Positions 8,036 to 16,834 of a stretch of 22,254 nt of DNA are shown here, piece after piece. How positions within the stretch are numbered: position 1 is the stretch's first letter; each line of letters starts with the position of its first letter. The DNA comes from a virus. The DNA lies in IMG/VR virus record IMGVR_UViG_3300014960_000005, positions 1-22,254 of that record; one strand, given 5' to 3'. The notes below the pieces were generated by a model. That model was not told where the DNA came from. It saw only the letters and a list, made by a program, of their open reading frames with translations, and did no database searches. The position numbers and the translations under genes were made by a program.

Positions 8036-8057
8036 GATGTTTCTCCTTGAATGAAGA

Positions 8058-8080
8058 GGGGGAGGGGGTTACCCTCCCCC
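8058..8080 (-). terminator. Strong hairpin after the major coat gene (attenuator-like)
   Basis: GGGGGAGGG and CCCTCCCCC form a perfect 9-bp GC stem with a five-base loop, beginning seven bases after the coat stop codon. The minus-strand sequence after it (TCTTCATT) is only moderately T-rich, so it may be a partial terminator or an mRNA 3'-end stabiliser for the abundant coat message. Confidence 0.6.
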
Positions 8081-8086
8081 GGACCA

Positions 8087-9097
8087 TTACTTGACCACTG
8101 CCAGCGCCGCAGCCTTGGGCTGCACCGCCTTGTACCCGAAGACCTGGAGGCAGCGAATGAAGTCGCCGAAGTCCTTCGGGTTACGCACCGTTTCCATCTT
8201 GGTGAGCTGCGTGGCATAAGCCAGCCAGCTCTTGTGGCCCGCAACGATCACCCGGCGCTTGTCGTCACCCGTCGAAGTGATGCTGGTTTCCGAACCGTCG
8301 CCCGACTTCCACGGCGTATTCGTTCCGGCCACCGCGCGCGGCAGGTTGTTGCTGACGTAGACCGTGAAGCGGTCGATGCCACCAATCCTCCCGTTGCGCA
8401 GAATCGACTGGCTGTCACCCATGAACTGGGCTTGGGCCAGGTTCGACGACAACAGGATCTGGCGCGTCACCGGGTCGATCAGCAGGAAGCGCTCGGTGTC
8501 GGGGATGTTTTGCTCGTCCAGCACCGAAGACAGCGCAGTGATCGTGGTCAGCACATTCGACGCATCCAGCGCAATCGGCGCGTCATCCGTACCGAGGTTG
8601 TACGAACCCGACTTGACGCCGGCACCCGAACCCTTGTTGGCCGAGTCGACGTTGCCCGAACCCAGAGCGCCGTTGTACAGCACCGTGGAGTCCGTCCGAA
8701 TCTTGAGCTGCATGGCCGCGTCGTTCGAGAACGTGTCCATCAGATTCGGCTGCGACTGGTGCGCCAGCACGTCGTTGACCTGGAAGGCGAAGTAGAAGCC
8801 CTTGTCGATGGCCATCTCGATGGTGGCCGGGGTCGGCACTTCATACGTCAGGTCGGAACCGATCTCGTAGGTGTTGATCGTGAGCGTCGGGATCGTGTTG
8901 ATGATCACCTTATCGCCCATGTTCTTGATCTCACCGCCGTAGTCGGTGTTGGTCACCTCGCCCAGTACGGTCGCCGTATAGAACTTCCGCAGCAGCTTGG
9001 CCGACCACAGGGTCGGGATAAAAGTACCCGAGTAATTCTTACCGTTAAAATCACCGGCTTGGCCGATGAGGGCTTCACTAGCAGAGATAGAGGCCAT
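8087..9097 (-). CDS. Major capsid (coat) protein
   Basis: A 336-aa protein placed directly after the scaffold gene, preceded by AAGGA six bases from the ATG. It has features of P22/N4-like HK97-fold coat proteins: an N-terminal arm (MASISASEALIGQAGDFNGK), the region FIPTLWSAKLLRKFYTATVL, the MGDKVIINTIPTL strand, an E-loop-like hydrophilic region, and LLIDPVTRQILLSS followed by IDRFTVYVSNNLP in the A/P domain. No N-terminal protease target is evident and no prohead protease gene is seen, consistent with scaffold-directed assembly without cleavage. It shares a GGACACATCATGGCC start context with the 128-aa gene at 1914-2300. Confidence 0.9.
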   Translation of the reverse strand: MASISASEALIGQAGDFNGKNYSGTFIPTLWSAKLLRKFYTATVLGEVTNTDYGGEIKNMGDKVIINTIPTLTINTYEIGSDLTYEVPTPATIEMAIDKGFYFAFQVNDVLAHQSQPNLMDTFSNDAAMQLKIRTDSTVLYNGALGSGNVDSANKGSGAGVKSGSYNLGTDDAPIALDASNVLTTITALSSVLDEQNIPDTERFLLIDPVTRQILLSSNLAQAQFMGDSQSILRNGRIGGIDRFTVYVSNNLPRAVAGTNTPWKSGDGSETSITSTGDDKRRVIVAGHKSWLAYATQLTKMETVRNPKDFGDFIRCLQVFGYKAVQPKAAALAVVK

Positions 9098-9156
9098 GAT
9101 GTGTCCTTAAACAGAGTTGACGATCAGAAATGCACGGCCCCAGATAAATCGATTCC

Positions 9157-10143
9157 CTAGAACTGCACGCGGCCTTCGGCCACCGCCAGATCAAGTTCCG
9201 CTTCCAGCTTGGTCACTTCGTCGGAACTCATGTGCCGGGTAAAGCGAGGGTCCATCGCCCGCTCAAACTCGGCCTTGGTCCAAGTCCGCTTGCCACTTTC
9301 TGGTGCTGCCGGTTTCGACTTACCGGGGGAGACTTGACGTTCCAACTCTGATTTCCGACCCGGATTGACCGGGGCCGCTGGTGCCGCCATCTGCTTGAAC
9401 GTGGTGAAAATCGCCGCCACTCGCGCCAAATCCAGGCGATTCGCCGCGTCATCCAGATAGGCCTGACGAGTAATCCCCGTCATCTGGTCGGTCTGTCCCA
9501 GCCATTGCAGGAAGCGTTGATCCGCGTTGATCTGTTCCCACTCGGGTACCTGACGAGTCAGGGCTTCGTAGAATCGATCTTGCGCGGTCGAGCTAACCTT
9601 CTGGTCGACAGCACCTAACCGGGCTTCCAGTTGCTTGATGTAGTCGGCTTGCTGGGTGATCACGCCCTTGAACTCGGCCCGTGCTTCGGCCAACGTCTTC
9701 TTGGCGATCCGCTCCTGCAAGTCGATCAAATCGGAACCAAAAGTCTCAACGTCTTTGTCAGTAACCAAAGGCTCCGCTGGCTTCGGGCTTTCCGGCTTGG
9801 CTCGCATCGCGGCGATCTCGGTGGTCAGCGCACTGACCTGATTGCGCAATTCGTGGAGCTGCTGGGCCTGGGTCTGGTTGATTCCGTACATCGAGGTCGC
9901 TCGCGACCTCCAGTAATCGGCGTCTTCTTCCTTACCCGGCTTAGCCTTGAGCGGCGGTACGTCTTCGGTCTTCTGCGCTTCTGGCGTTGGCTCTGCTTGC
10001 GCTACCGATTCCGGCGTGTCGTCAACTTGGGGCTGCTCCTTGGTCCCACTGGACTCGTCAGAACTGGCCTGTTGCGTCAACGCTTTTTCGATGGCCTCGG
10101 CTTCTTCCAATTGCCGTTGAAGTGCTTGGGGCAAATTACTCAA
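9157..10143 (-). CDS. Scaffolding protein
   Basis: A 328-aa, highly charged, Gln/Glu/Ala/Lys-rich protein with long predicted helices and almost no Cys. It begins with a coiled stretch (SNLPQALQRQLEEAEAIEKA), has an acidic, Pro-rich linker (about residues 28-72), a central coiled coil (QAQQLHELRNQVSALTTEIA) and a basic C-terminal region (about 270-300) followed by a helical end, the usual layout of coat-binding scaffold C-termini. Position between the portal-side genes and the coat is canonical. The start is a TTG at 10143, supported by an AGGAGAG Shine-Dalgarno and by the lack of any suitable ATG. Confidence 0.87.
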   Translation of the reverse strand: MSNLPQALQRQLEEAEAIEKALTQQASSDESSGTKEQPQVDDTPESVAQAEPTPEAQKTEDVPPLKAKPGKEEDADYWRSRATSMYGINQTQAQQLHELRNQVSALTTEIAAMRAKPESPKPAEPLVTDKDVETFGSDLIDLQERIAKKTLAEARAEFKGVITQQADYIKQLEARLGAVDQKVSSTAQDRFYEALTRQVPEWEQINADQRFLQWLGQTDQMTGITRQAYLDDAANRLDLARVAAIFTTFKQMAAPAAPVNPGRKSELERQVSPGKSKPAAPESGKRTWTKAEFERAMDPRFTRHMSSDEVTKLEAELDLAVAEGRVQF

Positions 10144-13015: not shown

Positions 13016-14488
13016 CTAACACAAGTTGGTGGCCGGAACAACCCATTTCGTCTTGCCGCAGTCGTAGATCCGATACCACCCATTCCGCATACACAAAAGA
13101 TGCTCGGACAGCGCCGAGTCATACGAGTCTCCCAGCTTCTGCTTCAACCGATCCTTCCGAAAACCCGACTTGTGGTGTCTTTTTTGACCGATAACGTAGC
13201 TATAGTCGGGTCGAGTCTTTCCGGCCAAAGCAAACCCGAGTTTTTCGTACATGGAGCCAAGGTAAAGGCGATTGTCCGAATAGGACACAACCCGCTCATT
13301 GGGAAAATCCTTGCGAAACGCAGCAAATAAGCGGGACGCCGCCCCAACACAGACGCCGTTGGACGCGAACCGAATCAGCTCTTTCCCCGAGGCAGCCCCT
13401 CGCTCGCTCACTGGCTTGCTAAACACCATAGCCGAGACGATCTGGTCGCCGTCCAGCAGATAGTATGCCGTACCACTTGCGGCGCAGCCCTGCATGTGGG
13501 TTTTTTCCAAAAAGTCCGACACGTCGGCAGCCGTTCCAACACAGAGCTTCATTTTTCTAGCAAAAGTTCTACTCCCTTTTCCAACCAGACAACGCAGCAT
13601 GTTCTTCACAGCGTGTTGGCGATACACCCACTCGTCTTCAAAAATGTGAATCAGGCGAACCCCTTGCTCGGAGCAGCGCTGACTTTTACGCAAGTGGTCC
13701 GAGGGTAGCTTGAACTTAGTGCTGTGGTAGTACAGTCCGTCAAACTCTATGGCCACTCCGAAATCCGGCAGTACGATGTCAACCTCTTGTGGCCCAATCA
13801 AGGATCGGTCGCGTCGAGTCGTGCGAACGCCAAATTCCGTCAAAAACGCTACTATCTCGTCCTCTCCGCTTGACCGCTGGTTTGCGCAGCGTGGGCACCG
13901 TACCCCGTTATACACCACGTCGCTCATACGAGATACAGTATAAGCTCCGTGTTTTTTGCAATTGATGGTAACTGGGGATTCGCTGGTTGCAATCGAGTCG
14001 CTAATCACGTCAAGACCGAGGCTTCCGGCGACAGACAACCAGTCCTTTCGCTTTTTCTCACCGTTGTCGCGCTTCTTTTCTTCGATGCAACGCGGACAGG
14101 CGATAACACCGCGAGCGTGATGGTGCGGAGCCTGTTCAAAGACAACATCGTGTCGCTTGCAACGGACGCTAACCTTTGTGTTTGCACCTCGGTAGTCTGT
14201 CTGCGAATAGTCAAACGCTTCGCCGTGGGTCGCAGCACACCGCAACAAAAAAGCCTCCAGGGTGGAAGGAGATTTTCCTGAACATAGCGCACACTTCGAC
14301 CCTTTCAGGTGGCTGTGCATGTCTTGCACAAACTCTCCGTGCGTGGGGCAAACAATGACCCCTTTGGTATGGCGATTGACATACACAAATCGTGAATAGT
14401 CGTACTTCTCCCCGTGCTTCAGGCGGGCCTTCGCCTCCCACTCCCTGTCTTGGAGAGCCGCTCGCTTTTTCTGGGAAGCCGTATTCAT
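13016..14488 (-). CDS. Free-standing homing endonuclease, zinc-ribbon plus EDxHD (Vsr-like) type
   Basis: A 490-aa protein. Three zinc-ribbon repeats of the C-x2-H...C-x2-C kind are visible (Cys47/His50/Cys66/Cys69; Cys110/His113/Cys131/Cys134; Cys177/His180/Cys198/Cys201), as in DUF723-type DNA-binding units. A restriction-endonuclease-like core follows: SSGEDEIVAFL (206-216), EVDIVLPDFGVAIEFDGLYY (235-254) and His255, then LIHIFEDEW. This is the arrangement of the Vsr-related EDxHD homing endonucleases described with fractured phage genes and I-Bth0305I. The C-terminal third (about 305-435) resembles the conserved accessory domain of that family. The ATG follows GGTGAG by six bases. It lies between terminase and portal with its own terminator, a typical intergenic insertion. 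Its target is probably nearby, perhaps the terminase gene of an intein-free relative. Confidence 0.88.
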   Translation of the reverse strand: MNTASQKKRAALQDREWEAKARLKHGEKYDYSRFVYVNRHTKGVIVCPTHGEFVQDMHSHLKGSKCALCSGKSPSTLEAFLLRCAATHGEAFDYSQTDYRGANTKVSVRCKRHDVVFEQAPHHHARGVIACPRCIEEKKRDNGEKKRKDWLSVAGSLGLDVISDSIATSESPVTINCKKHGAYTVSRMSDVVYNGVRCPRCANQRSSGEDEIVAFLTEFGVRTTRRDRSLIGPQEVDIVLPDFGVAIEFDGLYYHSTKFKLPSDHLRKSQRCSEQGVRLIHIFEDEWVYRQHAVKNMLRCLVGKGSRTFARKMKLCVGTAADVSDFLEKTHMQGCAASGTAYYLLDGDQIVSAMVFSKPVSERGAASGKELIRFASNGVCVGAASRLFAAFRKDFPNERVVSYSDNRLYLGSMYEKLGFALAGKTRPDYSYVIGQKRHHKSGFRKDRLKQKLGDSYDSALSEHLLCMRNGWYRIYDCGKTKWVVPATNLC

Positions 14489-14545: not shown

Positions 14546-16834
14546 TTAGACAAATCTTACTGGGGACGGCTTTACCTCTCTGCGGGAGGAACCGACCGTG
14601 GTGCCAAGGAACCCGGAATCCGCGTGTAGGCAGGCGTACTGCAAGCTGTCGGCGATGTCAGAAAAAGGATGGCTTTTCTCCGGTTTGTCGTCGGTTTCGC
14701 CCTTGGTGTTGATCTTGTACCGATACTTGCCCGCCAGCGCGGTGATCAGCGGCTTGGCCCCATCGGGGTTCAACAGCAGTCCTGGCTTGCCGTCGACCAT
14801 GCGGGTCAGGTAGTTGTCCACAGCGGCGATCCGCGCCGTGATCGAGTTGGTCTTGGCCGGTTTAACCGAGAACCCTTCCTGCTTGAACATGTCGGCCACG
14901 CAGCGTTCGTCGGTCTGGGCACGCTGGTAAGCAGCGGGGTCGATGACGACCTGGGTCCGGTAGTTGGCAAACTTGTTCACCAGCAGGGGCTTCAGCTTCT
15001 CGCGGATGAACCGCAACGCGCCCATTGACTCGCTGGTCAGAGCATCGTGGACGATCAACCGCCCGTCATACGCAACCTGACAGACCGTCGCAGCGGGGGA
15101 CAGACCCGCATCCACCCCGATGATCACCGCCGCGCCTGGCAGCGGTTTGGTGGCTTCCTTGGCCACATGGACGGCGCGGTCGAACGACCGGAACACCGGC
15201 TGCCCGGAGAGGCTGCGACCGAACTTGCCATCCACGTACACCGCGATCCAGTCGTCCGACTTGCCTTCGCACAGGTTCTCGTAATACCCGTCGGGCAGGA
15301 ACTCGACCCAGTCGGCTTCGGGGGAGCGGCCACTGGGCTGAATCGTGACGTGGGTGTTGGCCGGTGGGGCCGACAGCAAGCCTTCCCACCACGAGTCGTA
15401 ATCCGGCGGGTTGGTCGCGCCCCAGACCTTCTTGATGTCCTTGCCGAAGTCGTCACATGGCCCGACCCCGTTCATCGACTTGTCGGGATACCGGCCCAAG
15501 CGCCCGGTCAGCGCGTTGTAGATGTCGGGGTGGATCTCTCGAAACTCGTCCATGACGCCGAAGGTCAGTTGCAGTGACAGCAGCCGCCGCACGTCGTTGG
15601 AGTCGTCCAGTCCACGGAACAACACCTCGGCTTCCACGTCGTCGGCCCGCAGCACGAACTTCGACTCGGTCTTGTGCATTGCACCCAGCGGACCCAGCCA
15701 CTTCATGAAGTCGGGAATGGTGGTATCCCAGAGGATCTGGCGCGTATTCCTTATGACGGCGGTGCGGGAACGTCGAATGCCATCCCGGCAGGGAGCGATG
15801 CGCTTGGCTTCGTACAGGATCTTCATGATCGCCGCTGTCGTCTTCGTGGAGTTGTGATGTATTGCTCCGTCAACAGTTAGGTAGTTGTGAGTGCCGTCAA
15901 CTTGAAGATCCCAATAGACACTACTTGATACACGCCGTGTGATAGCTAGAATGGGCCTGTCAGATGTACTCACACTATCGGAGGTGTTAGATGGGTAGAA
16001 CAAATCACGAGCTTGTCGAGCAAGTTCGGAGGCTTGCCACAGGAGACGTCTCGTCAGTCGAGATAGCCAAGGTGCTTGGGAAGAACCCACGCCACATTCG
16101 CAAGATCCTTCTGAGACACGACCTCCCTCGTTTGCGAGAAGGCGGTCGCCGTGGAGAACACAACCATCAGTATTTTGAAGGTAGGCGGATAACTCTAAGC
16201 GGGTACGTGTGGATAACTCCTCCAGAGGGGCACCCGACACAGAAGCAAAGGAAAGGTCGAATAGCTGGGTACATGAGCGAGCATCGATACGTGATGGAGA
16301 ACAAACTAGGACGCCTTCTCTCAAGCACAGAGAGAGTAGACCATGTAGACGGTCTAACACTCCATAACCACCCCGACAACCTTCGCGTGTTCCAGTCGAA
16401 CGGGGAGCATCTGAGGGAGACTTTGACTGGCAGAGTCCCCGTGTGGTCAGAAGCGGGTCACGCGAACATGTTTTTACGACATCGCCAACCTGAAGCTCTT
16501 GAACCCGTCGATATGTACCGTCAGCGCAAAGAAGCTGGTGAGATCCGGCTGCGTCAAATTCTCCTTCTGGCGTTACAACTCGGTACAGATAGTCCGTACC
16601 TTTTGGGAACGAAATGCTGGACTGAGAAAGCTGGAATCGACATGTCTTGTCGTTCCACGATAGAACGCGCATTGGCCGATCTATATCGGCGATGGGGATG
16701 GGTCCATGCTCTGTGACCACCAGAGCGTCCCCAGATAGGCAACCCACCGGGCCGACAATGAAGTTCGAGAACTTGTCCGCCGTCAGGAACGGCGTGACGC
16801 TGGGCGACGGGTTGTAGACGAGGTGATCACTCAT
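14546..16834 (-). CDS. Terminase large subunit interrupted by an intein
   Basis: The 762-residue precursor should splice to a 465-residue terminase, residues 1-31 plus 329-762. The extein shows the two-domain motor: the Walker A loop GPVG/STKTT (residues 28-31 and 329-333), with Thr where the second Gly of a classical P-loop would be; Walker B GVMDEF (Asp429-Glu430); a coupling segment WGATNPPDYDSWW; and an RNase H-like nuclease with IIGVDAGLSP, VVIDPAA and SDIADSLQYA supplying acidic residues. It translocates and cleaves DNA at the portal. It overlaps the small terminase stop by eight bases (ATGAGTGA). Unspliced protein should be inactive because the ATP-binding loop is split, so packaging depends on splicing. 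Confidence 0.93.
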   Translation of the reverse strand: MSDHLVYNPSPSVTPFLTADKFSNFIVGPVGCLSGDALVVTEHGPIPIADIDRPMRVLSWNDKTCRFQLSQSSISFPKGTDYLYRVVTPEGEFDAAGSHQLLCADGTYRRVQELQVGDVVKTCSRDPLLTTRGLCQSKSPSDAPRSTGTREGCRGGYGVLDRLHGLLSLCLREGVLVCSPSRIDARSCTQLFDLSFASVSGAPLEELSTRTRLELSAYLQNTDGCVLHGDRLLANEGGRVSEGSCECGVGSSQAPWLSRLTRRLLWQASELARQARDLFYPSNTSDSVSTSDRPILAITRRVSSSVYWDLQVDGTHNYLTVDGAIHHNSTKTTAAIMKILYEAKRIAPCRDGIRRSRTAVIRNTRQILWDTTIPDFMKWLGPLGAMHKTESKFVLRADDVEAEVLFRGLDDSNDVRRLLSLQLTFGVMDEFREIHPDIYNALTGRLGRYPDKSMNGVGPCDDFGKDIKKVWGATNPPDYDSWWEGLLSAPPANTHVTIQPSGRSPEADWVEFLPDGYYENLCEGKSDDWIAVYVDGKFGRSLSGQPVFRSFDRAVHVAKEATKPLPGAAVIIGVDAGLSPAATVCQVAYDGRLIVHDALTSESMGALRFIREKLKPLLVNKFANYRTQVVIDPAAYQRAQTDERCVADMFKQEGFSVKPAKTNSITARIAAVDNYLTRMVDGKPGLLLNPDGAKPLITALAGKYRYKINTKGETDDKPEKSHPFSDIADSLQYACLHADSGFLGTTVGSSRREVKPSPVRFV
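15925..15952 (+). promoter_or_regulatory. Sigma70-like promoter for the antisense HNH gene
   Basis: TTGATA and TAGAAT are separated by 16 bases on the plus strand, within DNA that on the minus strand encodes Hint block F. The predicted start near 15959 gives a leader of about 32 bases to the HNH ATG. Confidence 0.55.
15980..15985 (+). promoter_or_regulatory. Shine-Dalgarno of the antisense HNH gene
   Basis: GGAGGT lies five bases ahead of the ATG at 15991. A near-perfect ribosome-binding site in the antisense of an intein would be unlikely unless the plus-strand frame is a real gene. Confidence 0.8.
15991..16716 (+). CDS. HNH homing endonuclease encoded antisense inside the intein (241 aa)
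   Basis: The N-terminus (residues 5-45) is a helix-turn-helix, HELVEQVRRLATGDVSSVEI followed by AKVLGKNPRHIRKILLRHDL. The HNH fold follows: SGYVWITPPEGHP (70-82), EHRYVMENKLGRLL (98-110), RVDHVDG with His118, then LHNHPDNLRVF with Asn126 and Asn130, and His140. This is the EHRxVMExxLGRxL...HxDG...NxxxNL pattern of phage HNH_3-type nucleases, with one His of the usual HH replaced by Asp117. It has its own promoter and GGAGGT. Residues 1-156 occupy the linker between the Hint halves; residues 157-241 lie antisense to Hint blocks A and B and are probably overprinted. It would cut intein-free terminase alleles and drive homing of the intein. The gene is nested in the terminase gene on the opposite strand, so its transcript is antisense to terminase mRNA. 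Confidence 0.9.
   Translation: MGRTNHELVEQVRRLATGDVSSVEIAKVLGKNPRHIRKILLRHDLPRLREGGRRGEHNHQYFEGRRITLSGYVWITPPEGHPTQKQRKGRIAGYMSEHRYVMENKLGRLLSSTERVDHVDGLTLHNHPDNLRVFQSNGEHLRETLTGRVPVWSEAGHANMFLRHRQPEALEPVDMYRQRKEAGEIRLRQILLLALQLGTDSPYLLGTKCWTEKAGIDMSCRSTIERALADLYRRWGWVHAL

Follow-up and report, generated by a model that had tools for sequence, protein, structure and literature searches.

A terminase intein of phages with a predicted HNH homing endonuclease encoded on the opposite strand

The literature describes inteins as bifunctional proteins whose splicing and homing activities reside in one polypeptide. Canonical large inteins, such as PI-PfuI (1dq3) and the VMA1-derived endonuclease (1um2), are marked by an in-frame endonuclease between the two Hint halves. 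The HNH endonuclease I-HmuI is part of a group I intron. Dassa et al. in 2009 reportedly described fractured genes, which feature split inteins with an inserted homing endonuclease gene. The group I intron L2066 of Didymium squamulosum carries an antisense homing endonuclease, I-DsqI, which is expressed and cuts the intron-less allele (PMC9548176). A full-text literature search, incomplete in its coverage, found no report of an antisense endonuclease inside a continuous intein.

The window, the whole 22,254-nucleotide stretch of viral DNA that was analysed, contains a terminase large subunit (TerL) gene interrupted by an intein, and an HNH endonuclease gene lies within that intein on the opposite strand. 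The intein is inserted within GPVG|STKTT, the Walker A motif of TerL, between the Gly and the Ser. The nuclease ORF extends beyond the linker between the Hint halves, as its first ~150 codons face the linker and its last ~80-90 codons face Hint-N, so that only Hint-C and the first ten Hint-N residues are free of overlap with the nuclease gene. The features of the locus are as follows:

14546-16834, minus strand: TerL precursor ORF of 762 aa, open throughout including the intein; matches PHROG 2 terminase large subunit with E 5.6e-21
15851-16741, minus strand: intein of 297 aa, C32 to N328 of the TerL ORF, delimited by invariant residues, Pfam Intein_splicing, the Hint fold and empty-site relatives
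16466-16741, minus strand: Hint-N splicing half, intein residues 1-92, AlphaFold2 pLDDT 92-98; both frames constrained; opposite the nuclease C-terminal region
15959-16465, minus strand: sense linker, intein residues 93-261, open, lacking any domain or amino-acid conservation of its own; AlphaFold2 pLDDT mostly 30-52
15851-15958, minus strand: Hint-C splicing half, intein residues 262-297, ending in HHN|S, placed by alignment and the AlphaFold2 model
15991-16716, plus strand: predicted HNH homing-endonuclease gene of 241 aa with an ATG start, fully within the intein; matched by PHROG 10730 and HNH_3, and conserved in 84 of 84 loci among the matches listed
15991-16149, plus strand: nuclease N-terminal winged-helix/HTH domain, residues 1-53; AlphaFold2 model and structural matches to DNA-binding wHTH domains, Z about 6
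16159-16434, plus strand: HNH nuclease core, residues 57-148, with invariant H98, D117-H118, N126 and N130 and a match to I-HmuI (1u3e)
16441-16713, plus strand: nuclease C-terminal region, residues 151-241, opposite Hint-N; AlphaFold2 pLDDT 80-96 at residues 171-240
15980-15985, plus strand: Shine-Dalgarno motif GGAGGT of the nuclease gene, 5 nt ahead of the ATG
15925-15952, plus strand: sigma70-like promoter TTGATA-16-TAGAAT, opposite Hint-C, the putative driver of the nuclease gene

A second, free-standing nuclease gene adjoins TerL in the window (13016-14488).

The intein has the residues of a class 1 intein, namely Cys1, a block B His, and a C-terminal His-Asn pair followed by Ser, Thr or Cys. 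Across 55 homologues C1, H68, the penultimate H296 and N297 are invariant, and the +1 residue is Ser or Thr and in one case Cys. The protein is matched by Pfam Intein_splicing, and its AlphaFold2 model, whose pLDDT is 92-98 for Hint-N and Hint-C and mostly 30-52 for the linker, superimposes on the NpuDnaB intein (4o1r) with Z 18.8 over 134 residues at an rmsd of 1.5, the linker being excluded. Judged by these features the intein is of the class 1 type, and protein splicing is predicted. Neither a Pfam search nor the AlphaFold2 model of the intein revealed an endonuclease domain on the sense strand. A cryptic sense-strand endonuclease was rejected, as the linker has no Pfam match and a pLDDT mostly of 30-52, and a group I intron was also rejected, as there is no Rfam match in the window and the frame is open as protein. 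The intein shares with the canonical large inteins the fold of the Hint halves, insertion in a nucleotide-binding motif of an essential gene, and a mobile distribution. Unlike theirs, its nuclease lies outside the spliced polypeptide, is encoded antisense with a start, Shine-Dalgarno motif and promoter-like signals of its own, and runs into the DNA that codes for Hint-N; the in-frame endonuclease that marks those inteins is not found here. The locus resembles the fractured genes in having a separate nuclease gene tied to intein halves. However, in fractured genes the host gene and the intein are both split, whereas here the intein is continuous and in frame, intein-free alleles are known, and the host frame is open in all loci, so a split intein with an inserted homing endonuclease gene does not describe it.

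The plus-strand protein was originally predicted to be a full HTH plus HNH endonuclease with its own GGAGGT ribosome-binding site, and the coordinates of the ORF and the motif proved correct. The profile search that had been proposed as a check matched residues 11-235 of the 241-aa protein to PHROG 10730 'HNH endonuclease' with E 1e-49 and residues 98-134 to Pfam HNH_3 with 21 bits, a score that lies under the Pfam cut-off for the window sequence alone. HNH_3 is matched by 52 of 52 aligned family members with a best E of 3.6e-8, and H98, D117, H118, N126 and N130 are the invariant columns across the family. The AlphaFold2 model built from the family alignment has a mean pLDDT of 86, and its best match by VIA-align is I-HmuI (1u3e) with Z 7.5 over 82 residues, covering model residues 54-148. 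Residues 1-53 align with wHTH DNA-binding domains with Z about 6. The window nuclease and I-HmuI have the HNH core fold in common and differ in that the window nuclease features the N-terminal wHTH and the C-terminal region opposite Hint-N.

The antisense arrangement is widely conserved. In 84 of 84 loci (66 distinct sequences), comprising loci from IMG/VR, Pseudoalteromonas phage PHS3, two Pectobacterium phages and the window, the intein frame has 0 stops across the HNH gene and the two frames stand in one fixed register; the matches listed in the viral profile scans are the best 80 of up to 217 relatives. The two remaining antisense frames contain 2-18 stops each per locus. A second scan with a more divergent query gave the same register in 62 of 62 loci among the matches listed, many of them on contigs already counted and about 20 on new ones. 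The same arrangement also occurs in E. coli, Enterobacter and Acinetobacter genomes, and all full-length relatives that were examined have the antisense HNH in the same relative frame with the intein frame open. The lineages with the arrangement therefore include phages or prophages of Pectobacterium, Pseudoalteromonas, E. coli, Enterobacter and Acinetobacter as well as many environmental viruses. Synonymous recoding of the HNH genes with the codons of their own locus gave an expectation of 6.7 host-frame stops on average, and 0 were observed in the 66 sequences. Chance is ruled out by the same register and the zero host-frame stops in all 84 loci against this expected mean.

In this register the first positions of the host and HNH codons face each other, the second host position faces the third HNH position, and the third host position faces the second HNH position, which allows the frame under selection to be read from the codon positions. 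Averaged over sequence pairs, the differences at host positions 1/2/3 amount to 0.50/0.43/0.67 in the C-extein, the pattern of a coding gene, but 0.37/0.62/0.30 in the linker, which is the HNH pattern with sense position 2 the most variable, and 0.30/0.36/0.38 in the Hint-N overlap, which is low at all three. The third-base identity of host four-fold sites encoding the same residue rises from 0.33 in the C-extein to 0.65 in the Hint-N overlap and to 0.82 in the linker, and the corresponding HNH values are 0.29-0.37 opposite the linker and 0.73 opposite Hint-N residues 12-83. Therefore, the linker has the properties of an HNH gene whose complement is simply kept open, and the Hint-N overlap those of two constrained proteins. 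By these measures the HNH frame is under strong purifying selection and the sense linker is unconstrained except for its openness, and in the Hint-N overlap both reading frames are constrained. The closely related inteins of E. coli MEI003 and Enterobacter cloacae L101 bear this out in the linker, where of 58 changes 53 alter the intein and 40, against 13.9 expected, leave the HNH protein unaltered. In Hint-N there are 7 changes in 237 bases, about a third of the linker's rate. All 7 alter HNH and 5 are silent in the intein, and because of this the splicing-domain frame seems to take priority in the Hint-N overlap over short times.

The nuclease gene also has candidate expression signals of its own. 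With the HNH start taken as the nearest ATG or GTG, chosen blind to ribosome-binding sites, a Shine-Dalgarno motif is present at 41 of 62 HNH starts, compared with 88 of 1411 control ATGs (6.2%) on the same strand. A sigma70-like promoter with at least 9 of 12 matches lies at most 130 bases upstream in 39 of 66 loci, compared with 24 of 614 control windows (3.9%), and a score of 10/12 is reached in 18 of the 66 loci and in 0.65% of the controls. The -35 box is located at -50 to -86 in 36 loci, and a perfect TTGACA-N17-TATAAT is found in two cases. The loci counted for both signals are related and hence are not independent events, and by these criteria the signals are missing in about a third of them. 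The sequences support the view that the antisense HNH gene is selected for its protein, has a ribosome-binding site of its own and, in most members, is preceded by a sigma70-like promoter of its own opposite Hint-C. The original prediction of an HNH gene antisense to an open 297-codon intein frame is borne out by the wide conservation, the profile matches and the HNH-type codon constraint. An antisense frame interrupted at random opposite a conserved sense linker would have argued against it, and the opposite is seen, with the antisense frame kept and the sense linker drifting. The suggestions that the nuclease would be made independently of splicing and that the locus may define a class of inteins with reverse-strand endonucleases gain support from the profile matches, from how widely the arrangement is conserved, from the codon constraint, and from the conserved Shine-Dalgarno and promoter-like signals.

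The distribution of the intein is that of a mobile element. Among the 43 close TerL relatives that were tabulated (52-75% identity), 38 are empty exactly at G|S, 3 are cut off there, and 2 have the intein. The inteins of L101 and MEI003 are 92.2% identical in DNA, whereas the N-exteins are 73% and the C-exteins 70% identical. E. coli ET729 and phage PHB10 have an empty site; each agrees with L101 at 82 of 90 bases of the N-extein, and over the initial 300 bases of the C-extein ET729 agrees with it at 281 (94%) and PHB10 at 277 (92%). Across the family, HNH protein identity reaches 57% in pairs whose exteins are less than 20% identical and is just 55-56% in pairs whose exteins are 80-85% identical. 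Presence or absence at a fixed site and transfer between divergent hosts, which are traits of HNH homing endonucleases, are both found. Additionally, mini-inteins of 133-161 residues without HNH occupy the same site in L110, L121, L124, L126, L138, L106 and L104, and inteins of 207-211 residues in L140 and L015/L114 retain part of HNH. Three sibling alleles share near-identical exteins, namely L123, which has HNH, and L121 and L126, which lack exactly that block; the L121 mini-intein retains TTGACA-N17-TATAAT. Antisense stops are present in the Hint-N of the mini-inteins L110 (5), L126 (3) and L121 (2) and in none of the other mini-inteins. The 28 stops counted in Hint-N residues 12-90 include natural HNH stop codons and were left out of the evidence. 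The empty-site alleles, the losses of HNH only, and the 92% identity of two inteins whose exteins are 70-73% identical indicate that the intein and HNH together form a mobile element. Second TerL inteins occur in L004, L063, L065, L141 and L145. Inspected by eye, that of L063 apparently has an in-frame nuclease domain, and no antisense ORF was recognisable in the other four.

The locus is very probably a mobile intein in the Walker A motif of a phage TerL whose homing endonuclease is coded on the opposite strand and supplied in trans. This explanation takes selection, expression signals, mobility and loss from the sequences and puts forward cleavage, timing and splicing as predicted steps. HNH would be transcribed from its own promoter, and the protein would be supplied in trans, either ahead of TerL synthesis and splicing or independently of them. 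This protein would nick or cut intein-free terL near the P-loop codons, and repair off the intein-bearing copy would insert the intein and the nuclease gene together. TerL would be made and spliced later, and the excised intein would have an unstructured linker where other inteins have a nuclease. Loss of the nuclease, which the sequences support, leaves a mini-intein.

The predicted target of the nuclease could be other than the intein-free site, and one unlikely alternative is that HNH is a formerly free-standing homing endonuclease that landed in the linker and cuts another site, with the intein serving as a safe harbour that does not depend on HNH. Free-standing HNH genes are common beside phage terminases (PMC10448857), the gene at 13016-14488 adjoins TerL in the window, and mini-inteins persist without HNH, all of which fit such an origin. 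However, HNH occupies one position in one intein at one insertion site in all loci inspected, and no free-standing, full-length HNH relative outside the intein was found in the profile scans, the viral ones covering the best 80 of up to 217 relatives. A tblastn search of phages with HNH gave nine full-length matches, of which PHS3, Sabo and Taid were inspected and lie inside TerL inteins, and the remaining phage matches cover the HNH core only. No HNH relatives were found in plasmids. A scan of a genome collection gave no match with the single HNH protein and six matches, four of them full length, with the HNH alignment. Furthermore, the gene cannot move without the Hint-N half, because its C-terminal region is the antisense of Hint-N. 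It is much less probable still that HNH was recruited for DNA packaging with the terminase rather than for homing. Such a role is known from HK97, in which an HNH protein encoded upstream of terL works with the terminase at cos (PMC10448857), and here HNH is inside terL; but conservation with the terminase module like that of HK97 gp74 is not found, as this HNH is seen only together with the intein and both are absent from 38 of the 40 close TerL relatives that could be scored, and inteins without HNH are still maintained in terL genes that look intact. That the antisense frame is a codon-bias artefact opposite a real sense-strand domain has next to no likelihood, since the long spurious antisense ORFs in the window (498 and 369 aa, opposite capsid and portal-type genes), which make antisense length alone unremarkable, have no family matches whereas this ORF matches HNH families over its full length, the linker constraint follows the HNH frame and not the sense frame, no sense domain is predicted or matched, and a chance or codon-bias ORF is refuted by the register conservation, the codon pattern and the synonymous-recoding expectation.

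As regards the mobile intein with its nuclease in trans, Hint-N is common to inteins generally, so the C-terminal region of HNH probably came about when the inserted antisense gene was extended into the Hint-N frame. This origin is consistent with the searches of phages, plasmids and profiles, in which no relative of the C-terminal region was found outside this intein family; the C-terminal region alone as query returned the same nine phage records only. We lean slightly towards a further reading, in which the C-terminal ~80 residues of the nuclease were born de novo, overprinted on the ancient Hint-N, so that nuclease and intein are mutually locked and form a distinct intein class with trans-acting, overlap-encoded nucleases. 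If the overprinting is true, recombination cannot part the intein from the nuclease without deleting the nuclease, and the promoter opposite Hint-C adds to the lock, such that most changes in one partner alter the other.

The Didymium L2066/I-DsqI system and the element in the window both feature a homing endonuclease gene opposite the strand of its splicing element. The splicing element of Didymium is RNA, a ribozyme intron, whereas that of the window is a protein, which requires one stretch of DNA to code for protein on both strands. The family of the nuclease has been catalogued in PHROG 10730 and as RefSeq WP_077828224.1 from E. coli MEI003, in both cases only as an HNH endonuclease with the intein arrangement overlooked. 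The RefSeq record of MEI003 lists this endonuclease beside a terL annotated as an incomplete pseudogene, and in Pseudoalteromonas phage PHS3 terL is annotated as a shortened gene that begins past the HNH overlap. Public records have missed the arrangement because terL is called incomplete in the one and shortened in the other, and the finding offers an explanation for terminase genes called truncated or pseudogenes beside an HNH gene in databases. The claim is testable at the bench because isolates exist, including the E. coli MEI003 prophage, the Pectobacterium phages and phage PHS3. Splicing and homing would here be the work of two proteins, one from each strand of the same DNA, and both frames are selected. 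The family is a natural test of the limits of antisense overlap between two proteins, and it may show a protein region that originated by overprinting on a known domain.

Directly downstream of the large terminase (TerL) gene in the window is a nuclease gene, and two long ORFs, in addition to the HNH gene, lie antisense to other genes:

13016-14488 (-), free-standing nuclease gene, 490 aa
11426-12922 (+), antisense ORF, 498 aa, opposite the portal/adaptor gene
8051-9160 (+), antisense ORF, 369 aa, opposite the major head protein gene

The 490-aa nuclease matches PHROG 559 with an E-value of 2e-99, it also matches the PHROG 3339 homing endonuclease and Pfam MTES_1575, and its match to Pfam Vsr is weak. 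It is a second, free-standing homing-type endonuclease, adjoining the terminase gene within which the HNH gene lies. No family matches were found for the 498-aa and 369-aa ORFs, which look spurious.

Among the related loci, the HNH ORF is longer at its N-terminus in L070, L072, L077, L081, L084, L101, L102, and L103 (280-350 codons, stop to stop), where the extension apparently features an extra HTH-like repeat. The intein linker of these loci is lengthened correspondingly. An additional intein is located within TerL in L004, L063, L065, L141, and L145, with TerL ORFs of 942-1125 aa; the first three of these also occur as L107, L150, and L162. In 4 of these 5 loci the second intein precedes a conserved C(D/G)(A/S) motif close to the C-terminus of the nuclease domain. 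The second intein of L063 is at a different place and, judged by eye, seems to contain an in-frame endonuclease.

Towards the C-terminus of the terminase of the E. coli MEI003 prophage, the TerL C-extein contains a stretch of ~30 residues that is duplicated in tandem. In this prophage and in Pseudoalteromonas phage PHS3, annotation pipelines called the HNH gene and truncated or pseudogenised terL, and databases may therefore conceal the antisense-HNH intein architecture under "HNH endonuclease + partial terminase".
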